The notes beneath the pieces are model-generated. The model searched no databases, was not told the origin of the DNA, and saw only the letters and a program-made list of their open reading frames with translations. From the IMG/VR virus record IMGVR_UViG_3300025131_009739, positions 1 to 64,000 of that record: a DNA stretch of 64,000 bases. One strand, written 5' to 3'. The translations under genes were made by a program, and so were the position numbers. Positions 812 to 26,694 of this stretch are shown one piece after another; positions within the stretch are counted from its first letter, which is position 1; every line of letters starts with the position of its first letter. This DNA is from a virus.

Positions 812-1853
812 GTTTCTTTTGTTTTCTTTTTTCACTTTCTTTTTTACGCCTTTTATATTCAACATATTTTTCAGTTTTGCGATATTCTCTCTGCCATTCG
901 GCTGCAGCCTTGCGACGTTCAGGTGTATCTTTTTCTCGCCTGCTAGCATTGTTGCGTGCTTTATATTCCTCATACCATTCGGGATCTTCTTGTTTTTTTC
1001 TTTGAAATCGAGCTGTGGCCTTCGCACTTTCTTCTTTGCGCCACTCAGGATCTTGACTTTTTTTCCGGTACCGTTCGCGCCGGTTTCGAGCGACTTTTTC
1101 GCACCACTCAGGGTTATTCCGTCTTCTTTCCCGGGCAGCGGCCCTACTGTACGCATTTTGTCTTTCTCGATATTCTGGATCTTCCTGTCTTCTTTGGCGT
1201 TCCCGCTGCGCTTGGCGCGCGTTCTGTTCAGCCCGAATCTTAGGGTCTTTCCTCCTCTCTCGTTGTCTTGCGCGATCTTTCTTGAGGCTTTCTTCACCAA
1301 AAGCGGTGCACTGGTTTAACAAAAGAGGATCTTCAGATAGTTTCTGAAGCATTTTTTGTTCTGCCAGTTTCATCTCTTTGGGACTCTCAAACTCCTTGAT
1401 AACAATCCACTCCAAATCTTCTCTGCTCAGGGAGTGTTTTTCACAATGTCTACACAAAGTTGTCTTCTGACTACCATAATATCTAAAATGCTCTTTAGAA
1501 CGTTCCTCCATGCCTTGCGTTGTCGAACCAACATAGTAATGACCAGTAGAGCACTGTGCTTTGTACAAATGATTTGCCTTTTTGCTTTCACGCCACAATT
1601 TATTTTTTTCACGGAGATATTCTCTATTATTTTCACGATATCTTTTAGCATACTCTTTCAAAACATCTTTGTTTTTTTCATGATACAGTCTAGACTTCTG
1701 AGAAAGCATTTCCTTGTTTTCCTTGTGGTATTTCTTCATATAGGAAAGTCTACAAGTTTTACATTGAGAACAAAGACCGTCTCTCGTACTGTGCTTTTTG
1801 TGAAACTCGGTTGTTTCTTTTTCTGTTTTGCATTCACTGCATATTTTTTTCAT
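792..1853 (-). CDS. GIY-YIG endonuclease with N-terminal Cys motif and long basic repeat tail
   Basis: A free-standing endonuclease-like protein of about 353 residues. It starts with a cysteine-rich motif (CSEC, later CSQCKTC), as in many phage homing-type nucleases. Next come three roughly 16-residue charged repeats (YHKENK type), then a GIY-YIG-like core with HYYVGSTT, an Arg in MEERSKEH, and a downstream Glu and Asn (KEMKLAEQ, LLLNQC). The last 170 residues are about six repeats of some 22 residues, each opening with DPEW or similar and rich in Arg/Lys/Glu, probably a DNA-contacting helical tail. I chose ATG 1853 over an upstream TTG because it overlaps the DnaE stop as ATGA and has GGAGG eight bases before it. 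It sits between polymerase and dUTPase genes, a typical place for an intronless homing endonuclease. Confidence 0.75.
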   Translation of the reverse strand: MKKICSECKTEKETTEFHKKHSTRDGLCSQCKTCRLSYMKKYHKENKEMLSQKSRLYHEKNKDVLKEYAKRYRENNREYLREKNKLWRESKKANHLYKAQCSTGHYYVGSTTQGMEERSKEHFRYYGSQKTTLCRHCEKHSLSREDLEWIVIKEFESPKEMKLAEQKMLQKLSEDPLLLNQCTAFGEESLKKDRARQRERRKDPKIRAEQNARQAQRERQRRQEDPEYRERQNAYSRAAARERRRNNPEWCEKVARNRRERYRKKSQDPEWRKEESAKATARFQRKKQEDPEWYEEYKARNNASRREKDTPERRKAAAEWQREYRKTEKYVEYKRRKKESEKRKQKKLDKQKV

Positions 1854-4800
1854 CCCAGCAACCTCCAATTATGTCTTATAGATCTCGAAGAAAATCCCCA
1901 CTGCTCATTGTAATCAATTTTGCACATATAAGGACGATTAATATGAATTATATCTTTTTCTCGAACTCCCCAACATCTGATAGAAGTTTGATTGCTCGTT
2001 GAATCAATCACATTAACAATCCAATACTCTTTACCGTTTTTTGTTTTTCTTCTTATAATTTCTCTCGGAATAAACCAAACAACCTGAAGTTCAGGGTCAT
2101 ATTCAGCGATAGGAGGAACAAAATATTCTTCAAGTTTGCTTTTTACACGCTCAGTCAACACAAGATCAATTGGAAAAACACCAGTCAAGTTAGCTTTGTT
2201 GGCAATTTTTTCTTCGACTGTAAAGTCTCCCTCTGGCCTATAAAGTTCAATGTTGTCATGTAGTTGTTTTTCCTTTTTTGGACGATCAACAACAGCAGCC
2301 GACCAAAAATGTTTCACTCCAGAAAACCTGTCATCAATCAATCCTTCTGCCGCGCCGCTCCGAACAAGAACGTCCAAAGCTTTCTTATTTAACTTACTGT
2401 AAATGATATCTTCATTAAACAACAGTTCTTCGATAGTGTTAAACGGACGATTCTGTACAATCTGTTCAATAGCTTTGTCTCCTAGACCTTTAACAGAAGT
2501 CAATGGTTGAATGAGAGTCTTACCATCTTCAGTAATTTCCCAAACTGTCCCTGAAGAATTTATATTGAGTGGCTGAATCTTAAACCCCATCGACTTAGCA
2601 ATGTTAATTGCTTTTTCTTTTCTGCTTTCAGGCTCCTTATCAAGGAAAGCGGCAGTCCACTCTACAGGATAATAATTAAGTAGCCATGCACACTGGAAAC
2701 TAAGAATACTATAGCTTACTGCGTGAGACTTATTGAAGCCATAGCCAGAAAAGTATTCAAATGTCTGCCAAAGTTGATCAGCCTGCGACATTGATAACTT
2801 CTTTTCTATACAGCCTTCAACGAATTTATTATAAATCTTCTCTTTCTTTTTTGATTCATCTCCAGCCCCTTTCTTTGTCAAATATTTTCGCAGAGCGTTG
2901 CCTTCGTCAAGGGAAATGTTTTTGCCAAGTTTGTGAGCCAGCAAAGCAATCTGTTCTTGGAAGATAAGGAACCCATGGGTCTCTTTTGTTACATCCTTTA
3001 TAAGCTTGTGAATGTAATTGACACTTCCAGGATCTCGCTTTGCGTCGACATAAGATTTGTCAACATCTGCGCCTAGGGGCCCGGGGCGGTATATTGAAGT
3101 GATGGCAGAAATATCAATCAGATTTTTCGGCTTCGCCCTCTTACAAAACTCCTGTGCTCCTTTTTCTGTGAATTGAAATATACCAGTCCACTTACCTTTC
3201 TGGAAAACATTTCTGTAAATATTTTGATCATTAAAATCAATAACATCGGGATGAAGTTTCTCGTTATAGAATTTCTTTACATTTTCAAATGTTGGATCCT
3301 CAACGCCGTGGTGCCTCTTGAGAATGTGTCGGATTGAGCCTTCAATCATTCTCAACGAAGCCAGCCCAAGAATATCAAACTTAATAAAGCCAAGAGGTTC
3401 AAGATGTCTTACGTTTTGCCCCTCAGACCAAGGAGTTTGCCTCACGCCGCCGCTATTAACAAGCGGCATCCACTTGTCTAGGCTCTCGCCTATAACGACG
3501 CCTCCTGCGTGCCTAGAGACGCTCCTAACCTGTCCTAGAAGGGCTTCAATATGAGTTTTGATGTTAGGGTACTTATTAAGGAACTTCTTCAAAGTCTCTG
3601 AGTATTCCATAACTTCTTCGAATGTTGGCGTATATACTCCTGATTTAATACCATGAACTTTTTTGGCAATTGGAGTTGCTTCAAAGATCATTTTCCCCGT
3701 CACATTATTAACTTCAATAAAAGGAACATCATAAAACTTCGATACGTCTTTGATTAAAGAACGAAGTTGTAGAGTGTTATAGTTTGAAATAGGAGCAACT
3801 GTGTCGGATCCCCATTCCTCAATCAACATCTCTTTCAACTCCATCGGATCACTTACATCATAATCAATATCAGGATAATCTGTTGCGTCTTTACGTAGGA
3901 ACCTTGAAAACAGAAGTCCATGTTTAATTGGATCAACCTGTGTGATATTAAGGACATAGGCGACGAGAGAACCTGCGGCAGAGCCTCTTCCTGGGCCTGT
4001 CAGTTGGACGGAAGACGCTTTGTCAGCAATCGCCTTCATTGTCAGAAAATACTTGGCAAATCCACGATCACGAATAACAAAAAGTTCTTCTTTAAGTCTA
4101 TCAACATATCCTTCTTTTTCATTAAGATCTTTTTCTTTTAGACCATCGAGACAATCTTGTGTCAGAGCCTGAATATCTGTTTTACCCGCAGGGACAACAA
4201 AACTTGGAAGTCTAACTTCATTATCTGGCATAAAGTCTTCGATCAGATCGTGAGCAATATATTCTGTTCTTTTGATTGAGTCCAACACAAGGTCATCATC
4301 GTAATCAAAACCAACCAACTTAGAATAGTTATGATATGCTTCCCACATCTGTTCGCCATTTTTTGGATACAATTCATATCCGACCTCTTCAACCCCGGAG
4401 GGAAGTTCAGCAGACATGTATTCTGGTAGGCCGCCTTTGCCTAGCCATCCAATCCTTTTATATAGTTCCCTGTCCTTCCAAGCGTCAGGGTTGGGATAAT
4501 GACTATCAGCGGTAGAAATAAGCTTTACATCATACTCCTTGCAAACCTGAACAATATACTGATTAAGCTCGTGCTGTTCGGGAATATTGTTCCATTGAAG
4601 TTCGCCATACCAGCGATCTCCGAATATGTTTTTCATGCGCTCTGTCGTTTGGCGCATGGCATTTAAAACAGCATCACCACTAATGTCCCTATAGTCCCAA
4701 TAATCACCAGCATAAACGCCACCAAGACAAGCACTAGAGGCAATAATTCCGTCGCCATATAGATCAAGAAGCTTATAATCAATTCTAGGGTAACGATAAA

Positions 4801-5257
4801 AGTTTTCATCTTTATAGCTCTCCGAAACTAATTTAAATATATTATTCAGCCCAACTTGATTTTGTGCAATCAAAATCAAGTGATCTCTTTTCTTCAGAAT
4901 GTCTACAACTTTTTGCTTTGAAGCTTTTTCATCTTCTATAGATAGTTCAATTTCGTTCTTGATCCCTTTTTTCTTTTCTTGTTTTGCTTTTTCGTATTCC
5001 TCACGCCACTGATCTAAGGAAGGGTTGAAGTAAGCTTCAACACCAAAGATTGGCTTAAATTTCTTGCCATCAGCCTGCATTTTGCGCGCGTGAAGAACTT
5101 GATAAGGCAATCCATTCATGTGGCCATGATCGGTCAATGCAAGGGCATTTCCGTCGTTCTCATAGGCAAATTCCATGTGGTCTTGTGGATATCCTAGACC
5201 GTCATTTAAGCTCAATCCGCTATGTGCGTGCAATCCAACAAATGGAATTTTAGTCAT
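1850..5257 (-). CDS. dnaE: DNA polymerase III alpha subunit (DnaE-like, family C)
   Basis: Replicative polymerase of bacterial type, 1135 residues, close to the length of cellular DnaE. The N-terminal PHP domain shows HAHS at 10-13, LTDHGHMNGL near 41-50 and FGVEAYF. The palm shows GPGRGSAAGS at 421-430 and the catalytic motif PDIDYD at 462-467. Further family-C blocks follow: SRHAGGVVIG, YRPGPLGAD, FQEQIALLAHKLG, and SGYGFNKSHAVSYS, with an OB-like region at the C-terminus. No beta-clamp or clamp-loader gene is visible in the window. The start ATG has AGGAG about ten bases upstream. It follows a small conserved gene in one unit and overlaps the endonuclease. It is unusual in a T4-type phage, which would normally carry a family B polymerase, and a second family A polymerase lies at 20746-21945. 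Confidence 0.93.
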   Translation of the reverse strand: MTKIPFVGLHAHSGLSLNDGLGYPQDHMEFAYENDGNALALTDHGHMNGLPYQVLHARKMQADGKKFKPIFGVEAYFNPSLDQWREEYEKAKQEKKKGIKNEIELSIEDEKASKQKVVDILKKRDHLILIAQNQVGLNNIFKLVSESYKDENFYRYPRIDYKLLDLYGDGIIASSACLGGVYAGDYWDYRDISGDAVLNAMRQTTERMKNIFGDRWYGELQWNNIPEQHELNQYIVQVCKEYDVKLISTADSHYPNPDAWKDRELYKRIGWLGKGGLPEYMSAELPSGVEEVGYELYPKNGEQMWEAYHNYSKLVGFDYDDDLVLDSIKRTEYIAHDLIEDFMPDNEVRLPSFVVPAGKTDIQALTQDCLDGLKEKDLNEKEGYVDRLKEELFVIRDRGFAKYFLTMKAIADKASSVQLTGPGRGSAAGSLVAYVLNITQVDPIKHGLLFSRFLRKDATDYPDIDYDVSDPMELKEMLIEEWGSDTVAPISNYNTLQLRSLIKDVSKFYDVPFIEVNNVTGKMIFEATPIAKKVHGIKSGVYTPTFEEVMEYSETLKKFLNKYPNIKTHIEALLGQVRSVSRHAGGVVIGESLDKWMPLVNSGGVRQTPWSEGQNVRHLEPLGFIKFDILGLASLRMIEGSIRHILKRHHGVEDPTFENVKKFYNEKLHPDVIDFNDQNIYRNVFQKGKWTGIFQFTEKGAQEFCKRAKPKNLIDISAITSIYRPGPLGADVDKSYVDAKRDPGSVNYIHKLIKDVTKETHGFLIFQEQIALLAHKLGKNISLDEGNALRKYLTKKGAGDESKKKEKIYNKFVEGCIEKKLSMSQADQLWQTFEYFSGYGFNKSHAVSYSILSFQCAWLLNYYPVEWTAAFLDKEPESRKEKAINIAKSMGFKIQPLNINSSGTVWEITEDGKTLIQPLTSVKGLGDKAIEQIVQNRPFNTIEELLFNEDIIYSKLNKKALDVLVRSGAAEGLIDDRFSGVKHFWSAAVVDRPKKEKQLHDNIELYRPEGDFTVEEKIANKANLTGVFPIDLVLTERVKSKLEEYFVPPIAEYDPELQVVWFIPREIIRRKTKNGKEYWIVNVIDSTSNQTSIRCWGVREKDIIHINRPYMCKIDYNEQWGFSSRSIRHNWRLLG

Positions 5258-12711: not shown

Positions 12712-12788
12712 TGGTGCGCCCGGCTGGACTTGAACCAGAGACCTCCACCTTATAAGAGTGGCGTTCTAACCTACTGAACTACGAGCGT
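12712..12788 (-). tRNA. tRNA-Ile with UAU anticodon
   Basis: A 77-base cloverleaf with encoded CCA. Reading the minus strand: acceptor stem with six of seven pairs (first pair is A-C), D-arm GTTC/GAAC around AGTAGGTTA, anticodon stem CCACT/GGTGG with loop CTTATAA giving anticodon TAT, and T-arm with TTCAAGT. The anticodon reads AUA isoleucine codons, common in AT-rich genes. Bacteria usually read AUA with a lysidine-modified CAU tRNA, so a plain UAU is less usual. The 49-65 pair and the first acceptor pair are mismatches, so it may be slightly degenerate. Confidence 0.85.
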
Positions 12789-16981: not shown

Positions 16982-17307
16982 CCAGTAAGATGATCATATT
17001 TTCGGGTTCGGCGCTTCATGCGGTGTCGTGGTGGTCGAATACGGTGATGGTATTGATGATTTGGCTCAAAGATGCCATGCCATGAAGAAAAATAAACGAT
17101 AGGACTTATCTGTCGATAGCTTGATACTTTTGCACACGGTACCACATCTCTGTACCATTTCTGATCATTCAAGAAAGGAATTACCAGTCCATGATAATCT
17201 GTTTCAACGTACTCAATTTCGCAATATTGTTCTGAAGGTATTTCCTCGACGTAGGCAACACAACTAACACTAAAAAGTAGTGGCAGCAAAAAAACCAGGT
17301 TTTTCAT
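16972..17307 (-). CDS. Putative secreted or lipid-anchored protein
   Basis: 111 residues. The first 16, MKNLVFLLPLLFSVSC, form a clear signal peptide ending at a cysteine, similar to a lipobox but with a suboptimal -3 residue. The mature part has several cysteines and tyrosines, then a basic His/Arg-rich tail (YHHRIRPPRHRMKRRTRK). It would sit in the periplasm or on the membrane. Possibilities are a superinfection-exclusion lipoprotein or a spanin-like protein; nothing decides. It starts within the stop of recA as ATGA. Confidence 0.6.
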   Translation of the reverse strand: MKNLVFLLPLLFSVSCVAYVEEIPSEQYCEIEYVETDYHGLVIPFLNDQKWYRDVVPCAKVSSYRQISPIVYFSSWHGIFEPNHQYHHRIRPPRHRMKRRTRKYDHLTGWR

Positions 17308-18425
17308 TTTTGTTCTTCTTGTTCGATATCGTAAAAATCCGATGCTTCACCTTGTCTCTTGTCAAATTTGAGTATAACTTCTTCGTCCATTATTTCTAAT
17401 ACTCTATCACGAAACTTCTTATTTGTCAACATGCTTTTCCATTTTGACGGCTGAAATTTTTCTTCCGTACCATCTTTATATTGTAGCGAATACCATGCTC
17501 CACTTTGTTTAAGACAGTCGGCACCTTTAATTGCCTCGAACCAACTCTCTTCATCTTGAATACCAATATCATCTCCCCATAAAATTTTAAAACTTGCTTG
17601 TCTGCCCTGAGTTCCAAAACGGCTTTTTTTGAGAGTAGCTTTAATTTCTGTTCCGACTCTAAATCCTCTTTCATCAAGTACAAAACTGGCCTTCGCTTTT
17701 CGTCCTGTAAGCCAAACGCGAAGAGAATAAGAATAAATCATAGCCTTCCCACCAGGCGTCATATAAGGTTCAACCATCGCTTCAGAAGGACTCCTAGTAA
17801 TATTTGTCTTAAGTTGGTTAAGCACTAGAAATGTCGACTGGCTATTCGCTATTGGAACAGTTAATTTAGACATTCCTTTAGCAAGGATGCGAGCTTTTAC
17901 AGCCATTGAGGACAAAGGATTGAAGTCGCCTTCAACATCACTGACGGATGGAGTCAGAGCAAGACTGTCCCAAATAAAAAGCATACGATTGTCATTATTA
18001 GCAAGAAGATCTTCGATTGTCTCGAGAACAAATTCTACGCTCTGTGCTTGAATATAAAGCAGGCTTTCTAAATCACAGCCTGTGCGCTCTAAAAAAGAAG
18101 GATCAATTGCTGATTCAGAATCGAAATAAACTACATCGATGCCCATATTCTGGGCGTTAGAAGCAACTTGTGCGGCCATGTAAGATTTTCCAGTTGATTC
18201 TAACCCTGCAATTTCAACAACTTTGCCTATCGGAATACCAGTTAACCGCCCACGACAAATAATTGAGTCTAACCAACGAGAACCAGTGGGAATCCAATCT
18301 TTCACTTCTGTTGGGTTGGCAGTGGTTAAATCATGCGCAACAGACATACCAGCCTTTTTATTAATAAGGTTTCGCATGTCCGACATGGAAAGTTTTCCTG
18401 CTTTGGTTTTGATCTTTCTCGTCAT
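17304..18425 (-). CDS. recA: RecA/UvsX-like recombinase
   Basis: Forms filaments on single-stranded DNA and carries out strand exchange in recombination-dependent replication. 373 residues. Walker A GLESTGKS near residue 77, Walker B FIWDSLA, a conserved LVLNQLKTNI loop and TPGGKAMIYSYSLRVWL are all RecA-core features. The C-terminal part (from WFEAIKGADCL on) resembles phage UvsX. I chose ATG 18425, with GAAGAG seven bases upstream, over a GTG at 18440 overlapping the isomerase stop. It follows the ssDNA-binding and isomerase genes and likely shares their promoter at 19822-19850. Confidence 0.93.
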   Translation of the reverse strand: MTRKIKTKAGKLSMSDMRNLINKKAGMSVAHDLTTANPTEVKDWIPTGSRWLDSIICRGRLTGIPIGKVVEIAGLESTGKSYMAAQVASNAQNMGIDVVYFDSESAIDPSFLERTGCDLESLLYIQAQSVEFVLETIEDLLANNDNRMLFIWDSLALTPSVSDVEGDFNPLSSMAVKARILAKGMSKLTVPIANSQSTFLVLNQLKTNITRSPSEAMVEPYMTPGGKAMIYSYSLRVWLTGRKAKASFVLDERGFRVGTEIKATLKKSRFGTQGRQASFKILWGDDIGIQDEESWFEAIKGADCLKQSGAWYSLQYKDGTEEKFQPSKWKSMLTNKKFRDRVLEIMDEEVILKFDKRQGEASDFYDIEQEEQK

Positions 18426-18436
18426 TGTTAAACTCT

Positions 18437-18952
18437 TCACTTTTTCTCTAAAACTTGTTCTTCAACGCCCAAAAGTTCAATTTCAAAATTCAATGTTTTG
18501 CCGGCTAGCGGGTGGTTGAAATTTAATACAACAGATTCCTCGCCGACCGAATCAATTGTTGCAGTTACTGAATGGCCTTCAGGATTTTGACCTTGGACCA
18601 TGGCTCCTTCTTGAAAAGCAAAATCAGGAGGAAATGCTTGTATCGGTACCGACTGAACATGTTCAGATCTAATCTGTCCATAGGCTTCATTCGGCTCCAG
18701 TTTAATTTTTTTGACCTCGCCAACGGCCATCCCGTGAAGAGCCGCATCGAAACCAGGAATTAATTGACCTGACCCAACCTCAAAAGAAATACTTTCTTCG
18801 CGAGATCGGGAGCTATCAAATTCAGTCCCGTCATCAAGTGTCCCGACGTAATGCACGTTCACTGTTTGTCCATTTTCTACTTTTTTAATCTTCGTTTTTT
18901 TGTTTTTTACTTTTTTACTCTTTGTTTTTTTGTTTTCTGTTTTTTCACTCAT
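18437..18952 (-). CDS. FKBP-type peptidyl-prolyl isomerase, SlyD-like
   Basis: 171 residues. After a very basic, Lys-rich start of about 25 residues comes an FKBP core: VHYVGTLDDGTEFDSS, GSGQLIPGFDAAL, GMAVGEVKKI, EAYG, then a flap-like insert (FPPDFAFQEGAMVQ) and VVLNFNHPLAGKTLNFEIEL, the layout of SlyD/SlpA-type enzymes with an inserted chaperone domain. It catalyses cis/trans proline isomerisation and may help fold phage proteins. The metal-binding His-rich tail of SlyD is absent. It sits between the ssDNA-binding protein and RecA, unusual company for an isomerase. Confidence 0.9.
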   Translation of the reverse strand: MSEKTENKKTKSKKVKNKKTKIKKVENGQTVNVHYVGTLDDGTEFDSSRSREESISFEVGSGQLIPGFDAALHGMAVGEVKKIKLEPNEAYGQIRSEHVQSVPIQAFPPDFAFQEGAMVQGQNPEGHSVTATIDSVGEESVVLNFNHPLAGKTLNFEIELLGVEEQVLEKK

Positions 18953-19020
18953 TATAATTCACCCCTTTTGTTAAAATTGAGACATCTGTAACCCCATGCC
19001 TCCCTGCGGGTGAGAGAGAT

Positions 19021-19761
19021 TTACGAAAGAAGCTCGCTAAAAGCCTTATCCACCGAATCACCTGATTCAGTATTGTATTTCTCTATATTATCAGAGGAGA
19101 CATCATCAACATTCCCTGATAAATATTCATCAAGAATAGTCTCGACTTCTCCCGGAGTCTTGCGCTCAAAAAGCTTATCAAGATCTGGAATAGTATCCAA
19201 CCATTCAGCACATTGTGCCTCGTCTTCGCACAGCGGCGAAGGGCGTCGGCGTGGAGTAATCTCCGTTTGAGGAAACGATGCTCCTGCGGGTTTCCCGTAA
19301 CGAATTACAAGGTCTGTTCCGGTTTCGGAATCTGTAATATCGCCATATTCGGGATTAAGGACAAGATTAAGAAGCTTTTCATAAGCCATCTTACCAAACC
19401 CCCAAATGCGCACACCTTTTTCTTCTTCTCCGCGAACTACCACGGGAGCAAAAAAGCGCTGACGAGCAGACAAAGACTTGGCCACTTTAATGCTTTCTTC
19501 CGTGCCTTCTTTATAAAGCTTGCGAACGAAAGAATCAAGTGCGTCGTCCTCTCCAAAGTTTTTCTTTGGACTCAGAAAGCCTGAGTTGTTTCCAACATTA
19601 TAGTGAAACCAATAATCTTTGAAAGGATCGCCATCTGGAGTAGGAACGATGCGAATCGTTGTTTCTCCATCCTGCGGCTTCCAAAAAGATTCTCGGTTGT
19701 TACCGCCTCTGTTGTCTAGTTCTGTGCGTCGGGTGCGCATTTTTTCCATATCAATACCCAT
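19021..19761 (-). CDS. Single-stranded DNA-binding protein, gp32-like
   Basis: 246 residues. The N-terminus is short and basic, and the core opens with FWKPQDGETTIRIVPTPDGDPF, typical of gp32-like proteins of T4-related phages, followed by an OB-fold region, EKLLNLVLNPEYGDITD and DLVIRY. The C-terminus is acidic and serine-rich (from DEYLSGNVDD to SELLS), as needed for contacts with other replication proteins. It coats ssDNA and coordinates polymerase, recombinase and helicase. It has its own strong promoter and a hairpin in the mRNA leader that could be an operator for self-regulation, as known for T4 gene 32. Confidence 0.85.
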   Translation of the reverse strand: MGIDMEKMRTRRTELDNRGGNNRESFWKPQDGETTIRIVPTPDGDPFKDYWFHYNVGNNSGFLSPKKNFGEDDALDSFVRKLYKEGTEESIKVAKSLSARQRFFAPVVVRGEEEKGVRIWGFGKMAYEKLLNLVLNPEYGDITDSETGTDLVIRYGKPAGASFPQTEITPRRRPSPLCEDEAQCAEWLDTIPDLDKLFERKTPGEVETILDEYLSGNVDDVSSDNIEKYNTESGDSVDKAFSELLS

Positions 19762-19789
19762 ATTATTTTCTCCTTTGTTTGAGTAGAGT

Positions 19790-19813
19790 CAGAATGACTA
19801 ATTTCTCATTCTG
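19790..19813 (-). promoter_or_regulatory. Leader hairpin upstream of the ssDNA-binding protein gene
   Basis: A perfect 8-bp inverted repeat, CAGAATGA and TCATTCTG, with an 8-base loop. It lies between the promoter -10 box (19822-19827) and the ribosome binding site (AAAGGAG) of the gp32-like gene, inside the 5' leader. T4 gp32 represses its own translation through a structured leader, so a similar operator is plausible (inference). Confidence 0.55.
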
Positions 19814-19821
19814 CTATGTTC

Positions 19822-19850
19822 ATAGTAACACAATGAATTCTGTTTGTCAA
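19822..19850 (-). promoter_or_regulatory. Sigma70-type promoter for the ssb-isomerase-recA unit
   Basis: Minus strand TTGACA (19845-19850), 17-bp spacer ending TTGTGT, then TACTAT (19822-19827), with TG just before the -10 box. The -35 overlaps the last codons of the tubulin-like gene. It probably drives ssb, isomerase, recA and downstream nucleotide genes. Confidence 0.8.
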
Positions 19851-20746
19851 GTGTTTTTTTCATTTTTTTGTCGTTGGATTTCTGATGTATGAGCAATGAT
19901 ATAAACATAATCCTGCTCATACTTCGTTGCAAAAATTCCGTAGCCAGTCGGAACTTCATTTTTTATCTGCTCTCGAACTTTTTTCAAAATGTCTCCATCG
20001 GTTTCTAATTTTTTCTTATTTATAGCATAATAATAGCGCATTTCTTCAATGTTGTCAAGCAAATAAAATAGTTTTTTTTCACCATCCTCGTTGTTAGCGA
20101 TCCCGATTGTAGAGATTCGGTTGATGTCTTTAGGAGTAGAAAAATTGGTAGTTACAGGATCGTTATGATTGTAAACATTTATCATGTGTAATGTTGAAAC
20201 AATCATTTTATTCAGCCGTTCATAATAACCAATAACTGGTATTTCTCCTAAATGCTGTTCAACTTCAGGATTGCTAACAATATAAAGTCTCTTGAACAGG
20301 CCCGACCTCGCATACTCTTGCAAAATGTTAAATGTGGCCCACTCGTGTTCCCTTTTTTCTAACGGAAGAAGTTCTATTTCTGGCCTTATATATAAAATGT
20401 TTATGTCACAATGTTTAAGATGTTCTAAAATTCTTAAAGACGCCCCAGAAATGTCTCCGGCGCCGCCTATGACGAAAAGAAGCTCTCCTTTGACGTCTCT
20501 GAAGAAGTTATTCATATTCGGGCACTTTTCTTCATATTCTTCTGGACTACTTAAGCGAGGAAATTTGCAAACGCCATTTTGTTCATGTTTATCAGTTCCC
20601 CCTTCAACACCATATGACGCCCAAGACCAGTCTTCCTGTGTAGTGTTATCTGAGGCATCGATCTTATAAATTTTATACTGATCGTGTTTTGCAAACTCAT
20701 CAGCGATATTGCATCCAGCTTGTCCTAGTCCTATAACAGTATCCAT
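19847..20746 (-). CDS. Tubulin/FtsZ-superfamily-like protein
   Basis: 299 residues. The start MDTVIGLGQAGCNIADEF matches the first strand and glycine loop of FtsZ/tubulin GTPases. LLFVIGGAGDISGAS at 90-103 sits where the tubulin signature GGGTGSG belongs, with the threonine replaced. NKMIVSTLHMI and the later NFSTPKDINRISTIGI lie where the helix and T7 loop of FtsZ occur, but the catalytic NxDxxE is not clear. Phage tubulins such as PhuZ form filaments that place phage DNA or capsids in the cell; whether this one polymerises or hydrolyses GTP is open. It is coupled by TAATG to the polymerase gene. Alternative: an unrelated Rossmann-type nucleotide-binding protein. Confidence 0.65.
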   Translation of the reverse strand: MDTVIGLGQAGCNIADEFAKHDQYKIYKIDASDNTTQEDWSWASYGVEGGTDKHEQNGVCKFPRLSSPEEYEEKCPNMNNFFRDVKGELLFVIGGAGDISGASLRILEHLKHCDINILYIRPEIELLPLEKREHEWATFNILQEYARSGLFKRLYIVSNPEVEQHLGEIPVIGYYERLNKMIVSTLHMINVYNHNDPVTTNFSTPKDINRISTIGIANNEDGEKKLFYLLDNIEEMRYYYAINKKKLETDGDILKKVREQIKNEVPTGYGIFATKYEQDYVYIIAHTSEIQRQKNEKNT

Positions 20747-21945
20747 TACGCTATAAGCTCCGCAAGGTCTCCGAAATCTCTACCAGTTTTGACGTTAGTT
20801 TTAAACTTGCCAAATCTTGTATTTGAAAATTCGTTTATAATATTTTTCATAAGATGCTTATCGTCTGTGTGCAGGTCAATAACTATGCTGTCATGTACGC
20901 AAAAAGCAATATTTGATTTTCTGCCTTTCAGCATATCATGAATTTTAATCATTTTTTGTAAAATGAGGTCAGCACACGTACTTTGTATTGTGTAATTTAA
21001 TGCATGATGTTTATCTGCTGGTATCTCTCTGTTAAAACAGGTTTTTACAACTTCGCCATCCCAATAATCGTTCAAAACTTTATCTTTATCAAACATCTTT
21101 CTCAGTACTTTTTCATTTGGGTGCTCTTTTGAATTATAAAGCCAAGCGAAGATAGAATTTTTAATTTCTTGTCTCGATGAGGTTTTGTTTCCAGATAAAT
21201 GTTTTCTGTTCCACTCGTGTATATCTGTTGCTGGCTGATTTTTGTCTGACAAAGCCAACAAAGTCCTCAATTCGGCTCCGTTATAATCTAATTCGACAAA
21301 TATATCATTATTTGGTTTAATGATGGAGCGGTATTTTTTCGGAAAAGTAAGAATTGGGAAACTATATTTTTTTGTTGTTAATCTACCGGTCTTGGTCCCA
21401 AAAATATCATATTTTATATATGGCGAAATACTCTTAACTTTTTTCCTCCACTGTCTTGCCTTATATTCAGCAAGATGCGGCTTAAACCCATCTATGTCAA
21501 TGTTGAGTTTTTGTTGATTTACGTCTTCAACCACTTTTGTTAATAAAGTCAAAAATCTCAAATTTTTGGGCGGCAAAAAATTTTCAAAAACGTGTTTTGT
21601 AATTCGGTTTTTTACTTCACAAAATTCAAGTAAAAATTTCTTCGGTATCAAGTCATAAAAACAATTATCATCCAATGAAACTTTTGCCAGATGGATTGAT
21701 CTCATAAATGCTTTTATCTTCCTATTAACTTGGTTCCAGTCTTTTTTTATACTGGGGGGACAAACACTGTCAATAGATTTGCCACCACATTGCAGATGTG
21801 CGTATCTAATTTCTCTATCCCCGAGGAAAGATGCATAAGACCATGTTTTGTTAATTCCGTTAGGAAGTTCACGATTAAAGTAAAGATTTCCGTCATAGTA
21901 GACTCCTATACATTTATGTTTATTGTCTAGTGTTTGAAATAACAC
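20746..21945 (-). CDS. DNA polymerase, family A (short, polymerase domain only)
   Basis: 399 residues from a GTG. The C-terminal 220 residues carry the family A motifs: FGTKTGRLT at 182-190; motif A FVELDYNGAELR with catalytic Asp220; the O-helix RQEIKNSIFAWLY (258-270); HALNYTIQSTCADL; and motif C CVHDSIV with Asp352, where the usual Glu after HD is Ser. The first 170 residues have no recognisable 3'-5' or 5'-3' exonuclease motif. The 5' nuclease is a separate gene at 15356. The enzyme may do gap filling, primer replacement or translesion work next to the DnaE-type polymerase. It has its own promoter and leads into the tubulin-like gene. Confidence 0.87.
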   Translation of the reverse strand: MLFQTLDNKHKCIGVYYDGNLYFNRELPNGINKTWSYASFLGDREIRYAHLQCGGKSIDSVCPPSIKKDWNQVNRKIKAFMRSIHLAKVSLDDNCFYDLIPKKFLLEFCEVKNRITKHVFENFLPPKNLRFLTLLTKVVEDVNQQKLNIDIDGFKPHLAEYKARQWRKKVKSISPYIKYDIFGTKTGRLTTKKYSFPILTFPKKYRSIIKPNNDIFVELDYNGAELRTLLALSDKNQPATDIHEWNRKHLSGNKTSSRQEIKNSIFAWLYNSKEHPNEKVLRKMFDKDKVLNDYWDGEVVKTCFNREIPADKHHALNYTIQSTCADLILQKMIKIHDMLKGRKSNIAFCVHDSIVIDLHTDDKHLMKNIINEFSNTRFGKFKTNVKTGRDFGDLAELIA

Positions 21946-21981
21946 AAATTAACCTTTTTCGAATTAGTTTTCATATCTATT

Positions 21982-22010
21982 AATTTACACCATTTTTGTT
22001 TTTTTGTCAA
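21982..22010 (-). promoter_or_regulatory. Sigma70-type promoter for the family A polymerase and tubulin-like gene
   Basis: Minus strand TTGACA (22005-22010), 17-bp spacer, TAAATT (21982-21987), the weakest -10 of the set. It marks the border between the late tail genes upstream and the replication genes. Confidence 0.65.
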
Positions 22011-22048
22011 GCTTATTATGATTTCGGTGGGCTGGTGCATGATGATAT

Positions 22049-23413
22049 CTATTGTGTAGTTTCTTCTTTCACATTGGGCATCACAGGTTTTGTCATAACA
22101 ATGGGATTTGTTTCCGGGAACCCTCTTAGCGATCTATTAATATACATTGCAGCGGCGGGAATGTCAAGTTCGCCAAAGCCGGTCGCAATTCTTTGAGCAC
22201 TTTTTAATATACGTCTAAATTTTGGCTCCTTAAAAAATACTTGTTCTTCGTATGATCGAATACGAAAATAAACTTCTAGCCAGTAGTCCGTACCATACTT
22301 GTCATTCACAGTGTTCATCTTAATACGGGAACGGGTCACAACTCTTTGAGTTATCTTATCAGTTTTCATACCGTAAGGGCATCTCTTATGGTCAGTTATT
22401 CTTACTACAGGATTTGCGGTAACAAATTCATTGTAATTGTTCACCATATTTGTTTTTAACTCACTTATGTCATTAAAACAAGACTTAGTATAATAGGACT
22501 CAAAAAAATGTCTGGAAGTTTCAGGGAATGCGTAGGCTTCGCCGCCGACTGAAAGTCCTTGGTTGAGAAATTTATCAACAGTCTCTTCAGTGTCAACACA
22601 CCCAGGCACTACTTTGCTAAGAAGCTCTTTCCCATCAGGCCTCTGCTCCAAAGAAGCAATGTGGTGTCTAATCCAGTACGTCACTGTGCGAGGAGATGCT
22701 ATGTTTGCAGTTAACCTCCATGGGGCATATTTGTTCACTAGAAACCCGTTTTGTGCTGCCGTGTTAACATAGAGTGGAAAATTTGGATCCTTTACCCACA
22801 ACATCCTGGCCTCGTCGCTATTATGATCGTTGGTTTCGAGCTGCACAGTTAAACCACTAATCAAGGAAGTACAAAGACTGCTTTTAATAAAAAATGTTTT
22901 AGTGAGTGAGTTTGTCGCGGCGTATTCTTTAGCAAATTCTAGAAATAATCTTGAATAATCGTCAAAATTTTGAACTAGTCTGGTTTTCACAGAAGTTTTA
23001 AGATAGACGTCAGAAAAAATAGAAAATATACTTTGCGCATATGGTCCGTACAACGTATCCACATCAACATAGCCGCCGCTGGGCTTTTGTATGGCAATTC
23101 TTATAATTCCAGAACGTGAACTTTTTCCCAGAACATCTGTTCTAACAAGGGCGCCTTGCACATTTTTAAAAGCAGTTGCTACAAAATCTAGCAGAAGTAT
23201 ATCTCCAACTTTATTTGCAAATGCAGATGTCGGCTGTACTACTCTTAATCTTTTTGATTTAGATTCGTTACTAAGATGGATTACATTACCTTGTTGATCA
23301 ATTTTGCCATATAAAACTCTGTGGTACCACATATTCAATGGTCTTGGAGTAAGAAATGGGTATTTGTAAATTTCGTAATTTATACTATCGTCGAAAGATT
23401 TTTTTGTTGGCAT
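22049..23413 (-). CDS. Putative virion structural protein (baseplate/tail region)
   Basis: 454 residues, no family recognised. It is the last gene of the late tail group, starting two bases after the previous stop. Text such as RPLNMWYHRVLYG near the N-terminus, many beta-type stretches and no enzymatic motif suggest a structural part, perhaps of the baseplate wedge. The assignment is from position only. Confidence 0.6.
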   Translation of the reverse strand: MPTKKSFDDSINYEIYKYPFLTPRPLNMWYHRVLYGKIDQQGNVIHLSNESKSKRLRVVQPTSAFANKVGDILLLDFVATAFKNVQGALVRTDVLGKSSRSGIIRIAIQKPSGGYVDVDTLYGPYAQSIFSIFSDVYLKTSVKTRLVQNFDDYSRLFLEFAKEYAATNSLTKTFFIKSSLCTSLISGLTVQLETNDHNSDEARMLWVKDPNFPLYVNTAAQNGFLVNKYAPWRLTANIASPRTVTYWIRHHIASLEQRPDGKELLSKVVPGCVDTEETVDKFLNQGLSVGGEAYAFPETSRHFFESYYTKSCFNDISELKTNMVNNYNEFVTANPVVRITDHKRCPYGMKTDKITQRVVTRSRIKMNTVNDKYGTDYWLEVYFRIRSYEEQVFFKEPKFRRILKSAQRIATGFGELDIPAAAMYINRSLRGFPETNPIVMTKPVMPNVKEETTQ

Positions 23414-23415
23414 TG

Positions 23416-26400
23416 TTACTCCACCCCCTCGGCTCTTAGAAGTTCAACAATCTTGTCGCGATTTTTCTCTATATCTTTAGCCAGTTGCGGTGTCACTTTT
23501 TGCCCTTCCATTGCGTGACCAGGTGCTACAACTCCGTCGCTGAGAGACTTATTCATGTGAGCAACTTGTTTTTTGGAGTCTGCAATCATTTTCTCTTTTT
23601 TGATGGCAGCTTCGGCAGCCTCAAAAGTGATATCTTCTGGCGGGGCGGTGAAGGCATCTTTTGTGGTGTCGGGTTTCCCAACATCCCAGGCTTGCACAAG
23701 TCTGACGCCGCCGACGGTAGACGTGGGCCGGGGCCCAGTCCCCGACCATGATGCGGCGGGGGCGACGGGAGTTATTGGTTTATTACCCCTGCCAGAATTT
23801 GCAGACGGTCGAGAATGACCTCCGAAAGATTGCCATAAACATTGCATGTTTGTCGTCCATTCCAATCTAGCGTCCAAAGCTTTGATCTCGTTTTTCGTTT
23901 TGAGAATAAAACAATATCCACCAATTCCTAGACCTATTTGTTCCTGTTTACTAAACCAAGTAAAGGGAAAAGAAATCTTTACATGTTTTCCTGGGACTAG
24001 AAGCGCATTACCATACATAGTGACATCATAATTATATGGCTCACCAAAAACATGGTAGCTATCAATGCCCTGTTGCTCTAATTTTGCTTCAAGATAATGA
24101 GGTTGGTTAGATCTATTCATTTGAAAATTTAAAATCGTAGAATTTTCTCGCCCAAGTTCAAGGTGGTAAACGCCACGTTTTATATCAGAGGATTTATTTT
24201 TAAACCACTTGGCAGAATTCGACGCGGCTTGTACGAGAATAAGCTCTCCTGTTTTTGCTTTGGATGAATCGTTTTCGGCAGCTGAGTTCCCAGGATCCGC
24301 ACCGGTTGAATCATCATTAGAATAATAATATGCATTGTCGTTTGCGTGGCGGTACTTCCCGTGGAGTTTAGAAAAAACTATTTTGTTGTTTATATTTTTT
24401 ATCGTTAAGTAAGATGGATAAGCGCGTACATTGACGTTTACGTTTCCTTCGTCTTTACATCTGCCCGTTAGTGCCTCCACTATCAGTTGAGTTAATGTGT
24501 CGTTGAGAAACGAATCAAAAAAGTATTCTGTTCTCCATTGATCGATAACATTTTCGAGCCAAAACTCTTGCCAAACTTTGAGGGTAATTGGAATTTTGGC
24601 TAGACTTTCCTTTACTACTTTTCGGTTTGCGGGGTTGGTAAATTCAACCTCTCCTAACAAAAATTTTACAGTACCTTTTTTGTTGCTGGTACCCCACCAA
24701 TCTAGATCCATTTCGTCTTTGTGCTCATACAACATTTCTAAAACTATATCTAAAAGATCTCCGTAGTAGAAAAAATATATATTTCGCGTGGATAAATCAG
24801 CCGGGGTTACCATTTTGGTGTATGGAATTTCGTTGGCGGGAGAAGAATCTCCTGCTTTTCTCGCCTCTGCTGCTTTTACGTTCGCAGCTTTAACTTGAGC
24901 GTCTTTTTCCATATGAGCCTGAGATTCTTGAGCAGCTGCCTGGTTTGGCCCAGCATTCTGTACAGCTGGTGGCGCAGGACCCCGCTGTGACCCCGCGCCA
25001 CCTGTAATGGCTTCGCCCTCAAGGACTGATTTTTCATCTTGTAAATCTAGAATTTTATTATTATTAGCCTCGAGTTGATTTAACTGTTCCTGTGCCGTCT
25101 CTCCTTGCGGAAGTTTCCCAAGAACTTCTATTTCTTTATCGATTTCTTTTAATCTATCTTTATTTGACTGCGCTACCGCTTTCGCTTTCCTAGTTGCAAA
25201 CCATCTATGAAGTTCACTTTCAGGTAGTTGAATAAAATGTAATTTATTTTCAGCAGTTAGTCTATCTAAAATTTTACTATACATTCTAGACATCTTCTTA
25301 GCTCTATAAATTGTTTGACCAACATCGGTCCTGTTGTGATACTCCCTGTTCTGCAGGTAAGTTATAATTCTTGTGGCGCGAGCTTTTCCGGATTCAATTC
25401 CAAATTGTTCTCTGAGCACATTTTGAGTTGCTTCCAGCTCAATTGCGGACTGCGCAAGTGGGTCACCAGTCATCTGCGTCCCTCCGCCTTGTTCTGATAT
25501 CTTTGTCGAAGCCTTTGGTCCCACGATGGCCTCGCCGGCGAAGTCTAACAGAGCTGAGATGCCTGGGGCGACCTCCTTCATTACCTCTCCCATGTTCTCG
25601 ACCCCTCTACCATACTGAGTTGCTTTTACAGCTTCTGCTTCTGCCGATATTAAGTCGTTTATATTCCCTCCTCCTTCTGCGTATGCATTAAGTTTATCTC
25701 TTTGTTCTGGTTTTAAATCTCCGAAGGCCGCGTTTTGTGTCTTTAAGAAGTGCTTCTTCTTCTCCATTTCTCCTTTGGCTGCGCCCTTATCAGCAGGAGT
25801 AAATAATATATTAGCAGCCCTCGATCTAAAAGATGTTTCAATAGAACCCACATAATCTATACTTAACTCAAATCCACCATCCGGAGCGTCAAAAATTGGA
25901 TTAATAGAATGTTTAAGAAGATTTAAATAAAGTTGCATCCTATTGGCTTTTAAGGCTGCTCTTAAATTGCGAGCTTTTTTATTCGGATTTGAGAAACCAG
26001 CACCTCTGTAAGCTTCAACTAATCGTTTAAAAGGAGGCGGCGTATATCCAACATCAACTCTAATTCGAAAGTATTTTTCATCATGCAGGAGATGCAGCTG
26101 ATCAGATGAGACTCCTTTTTTATCGGACTTTTTAATGACGGCTCTCCTAATTAAATCTGCAAACGAATATTTATGCCCCTTCTCTGTGTACATCTTGAAG
26201 AGAGCTTTCGGAGATTCGAAATAAAGTTTCAAGTTGCAGTGAACATAGGTATCTATTTCAACTGGTCGGACACCTTCAAAATCAAAAGTGAACGAACGAA
26301 AAGCAACACCTAACTTATGAGAATCAGTAACCCCTAAATTTCTAAGATTATTAAATTTAAGAGGAATAACTATATCTTTATCACTTTTTGCTTTCTGGGT

Positions 26401-26694
26401 TCCGAGTTTTACTTTGAAAATCTTAATCCAAGGCTGAAAGTCTCCAGAAATCGACTTAGGTACGTCCTGAAAAAAATCCTGCCCTGCCTTCCCATGTCCT
26501 CGAAGGTTATTAAGTATAGCAGTTGAATCCGACGTGTTTGGATCTGTTAGAGCTAGATGCTTATACTTTTGAGGAATTTCGGTTCCTTTTTTATTTGCGT
26601 ATAATTCAATCTGTTCGGCCAAATAACAAGCCTCTGCATATTCAGGTAGTTTCGACCGAGATTCATGCAGTATATGAGTATTCGATTTAGCCAT
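23416..26694 (-). CDS. Large baseplate hub-like structural protein
   Basis: 1092 residues. Three parts can be seen: an N-terminal beta-rich region (to about 300); a central helical, Ala/Gln/Glu-rich region with coiled-coil character and a low-complexity linker (GPAPPAVQNAGPNQAAAQ); and a C-terminal region with VYHLELGRENSTILNF, YDVTMYGNALLVPGK and IGLGIGGYCFILKT. The last blocks are of a kind I associate with hub or central tail proteins of T4-related phages, but I cannot name a T4 counterpart. The extreme C-terminus is Pro/Gly-rich then helical. It sits directly after a gp53-like baseplate gene. Confidence 0.6.
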   Translation of the reverse strand: MAKSNTHILHESRSKLPEYAEACYLAEQIELYANKKGTEIPQKYKHLALTDPNTSDSTAILNNLRGHGKAGQDFFQDVPKSISGDFQPWIKIFKVKLGTQKAKSDKDIVIPLKFNNLRNLGVTDSHKLGVAFRSFTFDFEGVRPVEIDTYVHCNLKLYFESPKALFKMYTEKGHKYSFADLIRRAVIKKSDKKGVSSDQLHLLHDEKYFRIRVDVGYTPPPFKRLVEAYRGAGFSNPNKKARNLRAALKANRMQLYLNLLKHSINPIFDAPDGGFELSIDYVGSIETSFRSRAANILFTPADKGAAKGEMEKKKHFLKTQNAAFGDLKPEQRDKLNAYAEGGGNINDLISAEAEAVKATQYGRGVENMGEVMKEVAPGISALLDFAGEAIVGPKASTKISEQGGGTQMTGDPLAQSAIELEATQNVLREQFGIESGKARATRIITYLQNREYHNRTDVGQTIYRAKKMSRMYSKILDRLTAENKLHFIQLPESELHRWFATRKAKAVAQSNKDRLKEIDKEIEVLGKLPQGETAQEQLNQLEANNNKILDLQDEKSVLEGEAITGGAGSQRGPAPPAVQNAGPNQAAAQESQAHMEKDAQVKAANVKAAEARKAGDSSPANEIPYTKMVTPADLSTRNIYFFYYGDLLDIVLEMLYEHKDEMDLDWWGTSNKKGTVKFLLGEVEFTNPANRKVVKESLAKIPITLKVWQEFWLENVIDQWRTEYFFDSFLNDTLTQLIVEALTGRCKDEGNVNVNVRAYPSYLTIKNINNKIVFSKLHGKYRHANDNAYYYSNDDSTGADPGNSAAENDSSKAKTGELILVQAASNSAKWFKNKSSDIKRGVYHLELGRENSTILNFQMNRSNQPHYLEAKLEQQGIDSYHVFGEPYNYDVTMYGNALLVPGKHVKISFPFTWFSKQEQIGLGIGGYCFILKTKNEIKALDARLEWTTNMQCLWQSFGGHSRPSANSGRGNKPITPVAPAASWSGTGPRPTSTVGGVRLVQAWDVGKPDTTKDAFTAPPEDITFEAAEAAIKKEKMIADSKKQVAHMNKSLSDGVVAPGHAMEGQKVTPQLAKDIEKNRDKIVELLRAEGVE

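Follow-up and report, generated by a model that had tools for sequence, protein, structure and literature searches.

Gene P0001, its predicted fold and its GTPase motifs

The DNA analysed here (the window) comprises positions 1 to 64,000 of virus record IMGVR_UViG_3300025131_009739. The whole record, termed G000, is 165,872 base pairs (bp) long. On the minus strand, an open reading frame (ORF) encoding 299 residues spans 19847–20746 (start 20746, end 19847); stops occur throughout the plus strand of this interval. The product, P0001, has a predicted tubulin/FtsZ fold and is encoded within a block of phage replication genes. Note that the ORF is not a chance one, because it has many relatives under constraint. 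Briefly, querying IMG/VR with P0001 alone identified 47 loci, and an alignment-based (profile) scan identified at least 590 confirmed related stretches, some sharing contigs. For the five computable pairs, the ratio of non-synonymous to synonymous substitution rates (dN/dS) was 0.05–0.10; the gene is under strong purifying selection. The number of matching stretches suggests that the protein family is common in nature.

P0001 was modelled using AlphaFold2, with 31 family members, and no FtsZ, in the input alignment. The model has a predicted local distance difference test score of 87.7 and a predicted template-modelling (TM) score of 0.87. In this model, two domains are joined by a long helix (H7), which is the arrangement expected in the tubulin superfamily. 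We compared the model with known structures using Foldseek. All 50 of the PDB matches listed were FtsZ, TubZ, CetZ or tubulin, with E values between 2.7e-12 and 4e-10. The matches covered essentially the whole chain, with TM scores of about 0.6 and root-mean-square deviations mostly of 5–7 Å. These high deviations may result from missing helices and a different angle between domains. In BFVD, seven matches had E values of 1e-3 or better. Of these, five come from phages and carry the names FtsZ, cell division protein, tubulin(-like) or PhuZ; the names of the other two are uninformative. Epimerases appeared only at E about 0.01. The predicted structure supports a tubulin/FtsZ fold over the full length of P0001. 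The initial annotation, made from sequence alone, had proposed a tubulin/FtsZ-like protein and named a structural search as the check. That search agreed with the proposal, both in the PDB, across essentially the entire chain, and among phage FtsZ and PhuZ proteins in BFVD. Since the matches are to FtsZ, TubZ, CetZ and tubulin, the contrary outcome, a best match to another Rossmann family, did not occur.

We next describe individual elements. Conservation figures refer to 112 distinct relatives of P0001, helices and strands were assigned by DSSP using the model, and element names are our own assignment. The predicted order is S1-T1-H1-S2 ... S3-T4-H3-S4-T5-helix-S5-helix-H7-T7-S7-S8-H10-S9-S10. 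All of the elements below are on the minus strand. The T1-like loop, GLGQAGCN (residues 6–13; 20708–20731), aligns with GVGGGGGN of Escherichia coli FtsZ. Its glycines, G6, G8 and G11, are found in 98% of relatives, the remainder being gaps. D30 is present in 88% and N179, at the T6 position, in 95%. In the T3 region, two glutamates are conserved (E69 in 95%, E72 in 100%). The T4 glycine loop has a degenerate equivalent, GGAGDISG (residues 94–101; 20444–20467), placed by alignment and by the model. The T4 signature of the GTPases, GGGTG[ST]G, is found in 0 of 112 relatives, as are the shorter forms GGGTG[ST] and GG[GAS]TG[STA]. Core helix H7 (residues 174–194; 20165–20227) contains the motif HMxNV, where H187 is invariant, N190 is 96% conserved and V191 92%. 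Between H7 and S7, the T7 equivalent (residues 195–210; 20117–20164) is 16 residues long in all 112 relatives. The GTPase motif NxDxx[DE], followed by H8, is not found here; the best D..[DE] column pair accounts for 20% of sequences. In the model, there is no helix in the T7 segment or between S7 and S8, so H8 and H9 are predicted to be absent. The last strand is predicted to end at residue 287 of 299, with no helix beyond. The family also has signatures of its own: QEYARS (residues 143–148; 20303–20320), at the end of the helix following T5, HMxNV (187–191) and YYY (238–240). Within QEYARS, Q143, E144, Y145, R147 and S148 are invariant and position 146 is A or T.

The initial annotation had quoted GLGQAGCN and GGAGDISG, both of which occur at the residues given above, and had seen no clear NxDxxE. 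Indeed, P0001 has no NxDxx[D/E] motif at the expected T7 place. The altered glycine loop and T7 are family-wide, across the 112 relatives, and not peculiar to this copy. In FtsZ, a pair of aspartates in T7 promotes hydrolysis of the GTP held by the neighbouring subunit (PMC8936486). P0001 lacks these aspartates and, therefore, would not hydrolyse GTP in the known way. Given the degenerate motifs, we consider GTP hydrolysis by P0001 very unlikely. Hence, where the initial annotation offered either a GTP-binding filament protein or a non-polymerising relative, we lean towards a non-hydrolysing protein.

The replication block, distribution of the family and a second tubulin

As the initial annotation had indicated, P0001 is encoded beside a DNA polymerase. 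This family-A, PolA-like enzyme (399 residues; 20746–21945, minus strand; PF00476, E 3e-16) ends on the starting base of P0001, such that stop and start codons overlap by one base (TAATG). On the other side are genes, all on the minus strand, for a gp32-like single-stranded-DNA-binding protein (SSB; 19021–19761; phrog_1192, E 1e-24), an FKBP-type peptidyl-prolyl isomerase (18437–18952; PF00254, E 5e-25) and a UvsX/RecA-like recombinase (17304–18440; PF00154, E 2e-32). A 5'-3' exonuclease is encoded farther on. In relatives, UvsX is in the same block and the isomerase is found at many loci, not all. For comparisons between loci, we refer to the polymerase and P0001 genes as POL and TUB. All three of POL, TUB and SSB were seen at 114 loci, chosen by TUB and not by gene context. 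In every case (114/114), the order was POL-TUB-SSB, on the same strand. Pairwise TUB distances follow those of POL (Mantel r 0.83) and SSB (Mantel r 0.69). Hence, the gene has been inherited together with the block.

Promoter-like sites on the minus strand precede the polymerase-tubulin pair (21982–22010) and separate P0001 from SSB (19822–19850; TTGACA-17-TACTAT). Each is a consensus match only, at 10 of 12 positions, and the count of such sites is not clearly above that in shuffled sequences. No Rfam RNA was found within 18000–23500. Two large proteins (454 and 1092 residues; 22049–26694) adjoin the polymerase; both are kept in relatives at low identity and neither has a PHROG match. In three distantly related genomes (G017, G016 and G018; loci L155, L156 and L157), small proteins whose N-termini are basic and rich in Ile and Leu lie between the polymerase and SSB, the position of the tubulin gene in the present lineage. 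A single tRNA gene, for tRNA-Ile with anticodon TAT (12712–12788), was detected in the window.

The genome had also been described as T4-type. This holds for virion and packaging genes (T4-type terminase, sheath and portal) and for an SbcC/D-like protein, but not for the replication set. Unlike that of T4, this consists of a DnaE-type Pol III alpha and the PolA-like protein. The former is encoded at 1850–5257; the latter is short, has no evident exonuclease domain and has no match in INPHARED.

By sequence, the P0001 family is scarcely recognised. With PF00091, P0001 scores 13.3 bits, below the gathering score of 33, and one of the 31 family members matches at E<=0.1. Individual family members also give weak Pfam matches, divided between TrkA_N, Sacchrp_dh_NADP, Lycopene_cycl and Tubulin. 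Searches of PDB sequences, with the single sequence (phmmer) and with the family profile, found no meaningful chain. All matches in PHROGs were non-significant, with no PHROG for the family, and tblastn found no true match among 50,697 phages in INPHARED. Records of the P0001 lineage, which comprises uncultured tailed phages, are about 150–200 kb. By terminase, the closest cultured phages are Flavobacterium phage immuto (44%) and Microcystis phage Mel-JY01 (41%); neither PF00091 nor the P0001 family profile detected a tubulin in the closest cultured phages. One match, L237 (CP070664.1), was found in our genome collection. This is a WOR-3 metagenome-assembled genome 'chromosome' record holding the POL-TUB-SSB-UvsX block of this phage lineage. 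Because the same phage block is present, L237 is most likely phage DNA, either misassembled or a real insertion; a cellular tubulin gene is disfavoured by these surroundings. The simplest history would be one gain in an ancestor of the lineage and retention since.

A search with PF00091 identified a second tubulin/FtsZ-like protein, P0002, elsewhere in the record (364 residues; G000 about 103386–104480, minus strand, outside the window; L001:1027-2121). P0002 matches PF00091 (E 3e-6), its sequence profile matches FtsZ, CetZ and TubZ structures, and its fold match reaches E 4e-20. All 31 aligned rows contain GGGTGS (T4) and FD[ST][KR]DL (T7; FDSKDL in P0002). The model has an intact T1, a disordered N-terminus, H8 (250–257) and H9 (278–288). 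By sequence, P0002 appears to be a canonical tubulin-like GTPase. Relatives number more than 100 in IMG/VR, on contigs of up to 281 kb, and there are none in INPHARED. P0001 relatives occur in 6 of 21 records (G000 plus 20 chosen by P0002) and are missing from 15. Conversely, P0002 was found in 0 of 17 records chosen by P0001, and four of these, of 159–193 kb, also lack any PF00091 match. This co-occurrence pattern speaks against an obligate pair, though records may be fragments. In profile-profile comparison, elements of P0001 and P0002 align in the correct order at E about 0.05. This weak match leaves recent duplication of P0002 unsupported as the origin of P0001.

Possible roles of P0001

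We propose that P0001 diverged within the FtsZ/tubulin superfamily, keeping the two-domain fold and H7 and losing the machinery for GTP hydrolysis. The losses would comprise the degenerate T4, a T3 region with conserved glutamates, a T7 without catalytic aspartates and absence of H8 and H9. Produced together with the PolA-like polymerase, P0001 would act as a non-dynamic, non-hydrolysing subunit, such as a scaffold or adaptor, perhaps as a short oligomer. It might organise the phage replication complex (polymerase, SSB and recombinase) or anchor the complex at a cellular place. To such a role, in which P0001 serves the replication machinery as scaffold or adaptor and hydrolyses no GTP, we assign a probability of roughly 0.4. 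It is supported by the fold, degeneration of T4 and T7 in 112 relatives, absence from the model of H8 and H9 (which P0002 has), the invariant order at 114 loci, the stop/start overlap, the Mantel correlations and dN/dS, and by the catalytic role of the T7 aspartates in FtsZ (PMC8936486). Physical contact with replication proteins is a guess. More broadly, the family probably represents a new branch of the phage cytoskeleton proteins, one that does not hydrolyse GTP and is linked to DNA replication. That a widespread T4-type phage lineage turned a GTP-driven tubulin filament into a fixed replication subunit, a tubulin pseudo-GTPase acting alongside a DNA polymerase, with some members keeping a separate active tubulin, is a tentative and rather doubtful extension. 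Several observations weigh against a scaffold or adaptor role. Neighbours in an operon often have only their timing in common, without contact between the products, and the P0001 family evolves faster than SSB and UvsX. In distant relatives (G016–G018), POL, SSB and UvsX occur together, with the place of TUB taken by other small genes. Hence, because these relatives replicate without the tubulin, P0001 is no general part of the replisome. Finally, the conserved T1 glycines, D30 and N179 make nucleotide binding possible.

The main rival is that P0001 is a decoy. Its nucleotide face would bind one end of a host FtsZ filament and, unable to carry the next subunit for lack of T7 and H8, it would cap filaments and block division during infection. 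Small phage proteins that inhibit FtsZ, T7 Gp0.4 for example, are well established; PMC13423816 also mentions Gp0.4 and FtsZ. In the model, half of the longitudinal interface is gone from P0001, and FtsZ structures are among the top fold matches. The rank of FtsZ is weak evidence, however, because FtsZ dominates the PDB. Furthermore, P0001 is encoded in the replication block and not among early host-takeover genes, and we consider a decoy unlikely. Alternatively, P0001 might act together with P0002, as a cap, a nucleator or a second subunit of alpha/beta type, and cause filaments of P0002 to terminate or stick where replication takes place. Both genes are present in G000 and five other records, and P0002 has an intact T4 and T7. 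Yet most records chosen by either protein lack the other, including the four long ones without a PF00091 match, and the profiles of the two are only weakly similar. A partnership is, therefore, improbable.

Two further readings concern the protein itself. P0001 could still assemble, as PhuZ and TubZ do, into dynamic filaments driven by GTP, using an unusual active site, and so move or centre phage DNA. The entire fold is kept, as are the T1 glycines, D30 and N179. Nonetheless, the T7 aspartate pair and H8 are missing, T4 is degenerate in 112 of 112 relatives and hardly any tail extends past the last strand. The PhuZ T7 loop is catalytic, and T7 mutants lose GTPase activity and form static filaments (PMC7950403). 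A dynamic filament thus seems quite improbable. Lastly, P0001 might be another GxGxxG Rossmann protein and no relative of tubulin, as the scatter of weak Pfam matches, TrkA_N and Sacchrp_dh_NADP among them, could imply. The PDB matches listed were nonetheless tubulin-type over the whole chain in 50 of 50 cases, even though no FtsZ was in the alignment input, and epimerases in BFVD were far weaker. We regard this as very improbable indeed.

Comparison with known tubulin-superfamily systems

Like P0001, FtsZ (PF00091) has a two-domain fold, the same element order, H7 and a T1-like loop, and provides the best PDB matches. Conversely, P0001 is without the GGGTG[ST]G T4, the T7 NxDxxD and, in the model, H8 and H9; identity is 12–16%. 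While FtsZ functions in cell division, P0001 is phage-encoded, in a replication operon. PhuZ, of phiKZ-type phages, has an extended C-terminal helix and a tail past the last strand. Neither is seen in P0001, where that strand is predicted to end at residue 287 of 299. PhuZ and P0001 are both phage-encoded with a tubulin fold, and PhuZ of phage Noxifer is among the BFVD matches. However, PhuZ has a catalytic T7 (PMC7950403) and accompanies a nucleus shell, whereas T7 is lost in P0001. A search of G000 with the phiKZ shell protein gp54 found no relative, but a single distant query makes this a weak test. TubZ, from plasmid and c-st phage partition, also resembles P0001 in fold (E 3.6e-12). Replicon partition by TubZ also involves TubR and a centromere (PMC7950403), while P0001 is encoded beside the PolA-like polymerase and SSB.

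There is a cellular precedent for change in the T7 region. FtsZ-like 1 (FtsZl1) is a superfamily branch in which the S6–T7 region is lost or changed, and may not form normal filaments (PMC2875224). In contrast to P0001, where H7 and a C-terminal domain resembling that of FtsZ are retained, FtsZl1 is cellular, has a coiled coil and another C-terminal domain, and is encoded next to VWA genes. P0002 is of the same superfamily and record as P0001 but keeps GGGTGS, FDSKDL, H8 and H9, and often occurs without it.

Two subgroups of phage tubulins, TubZ and PhuZ, have been described (PMC7950403). Because the GTPase motifs that define FtsZ, PhuZ and TubZ fail while the fold stays, we place the P0001 family inside the superfamily as a novel variant, outside these three groups as given in open PMC papers. 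It would be a further large tubulin branch, absent from PHROGs and INPHARED, under the Pfam cut-off and always in the replication block. Here, selection appears to have kept a tubulin fold without the GTPase, which offers a way to test the function of the fold in the absence of dynamics.
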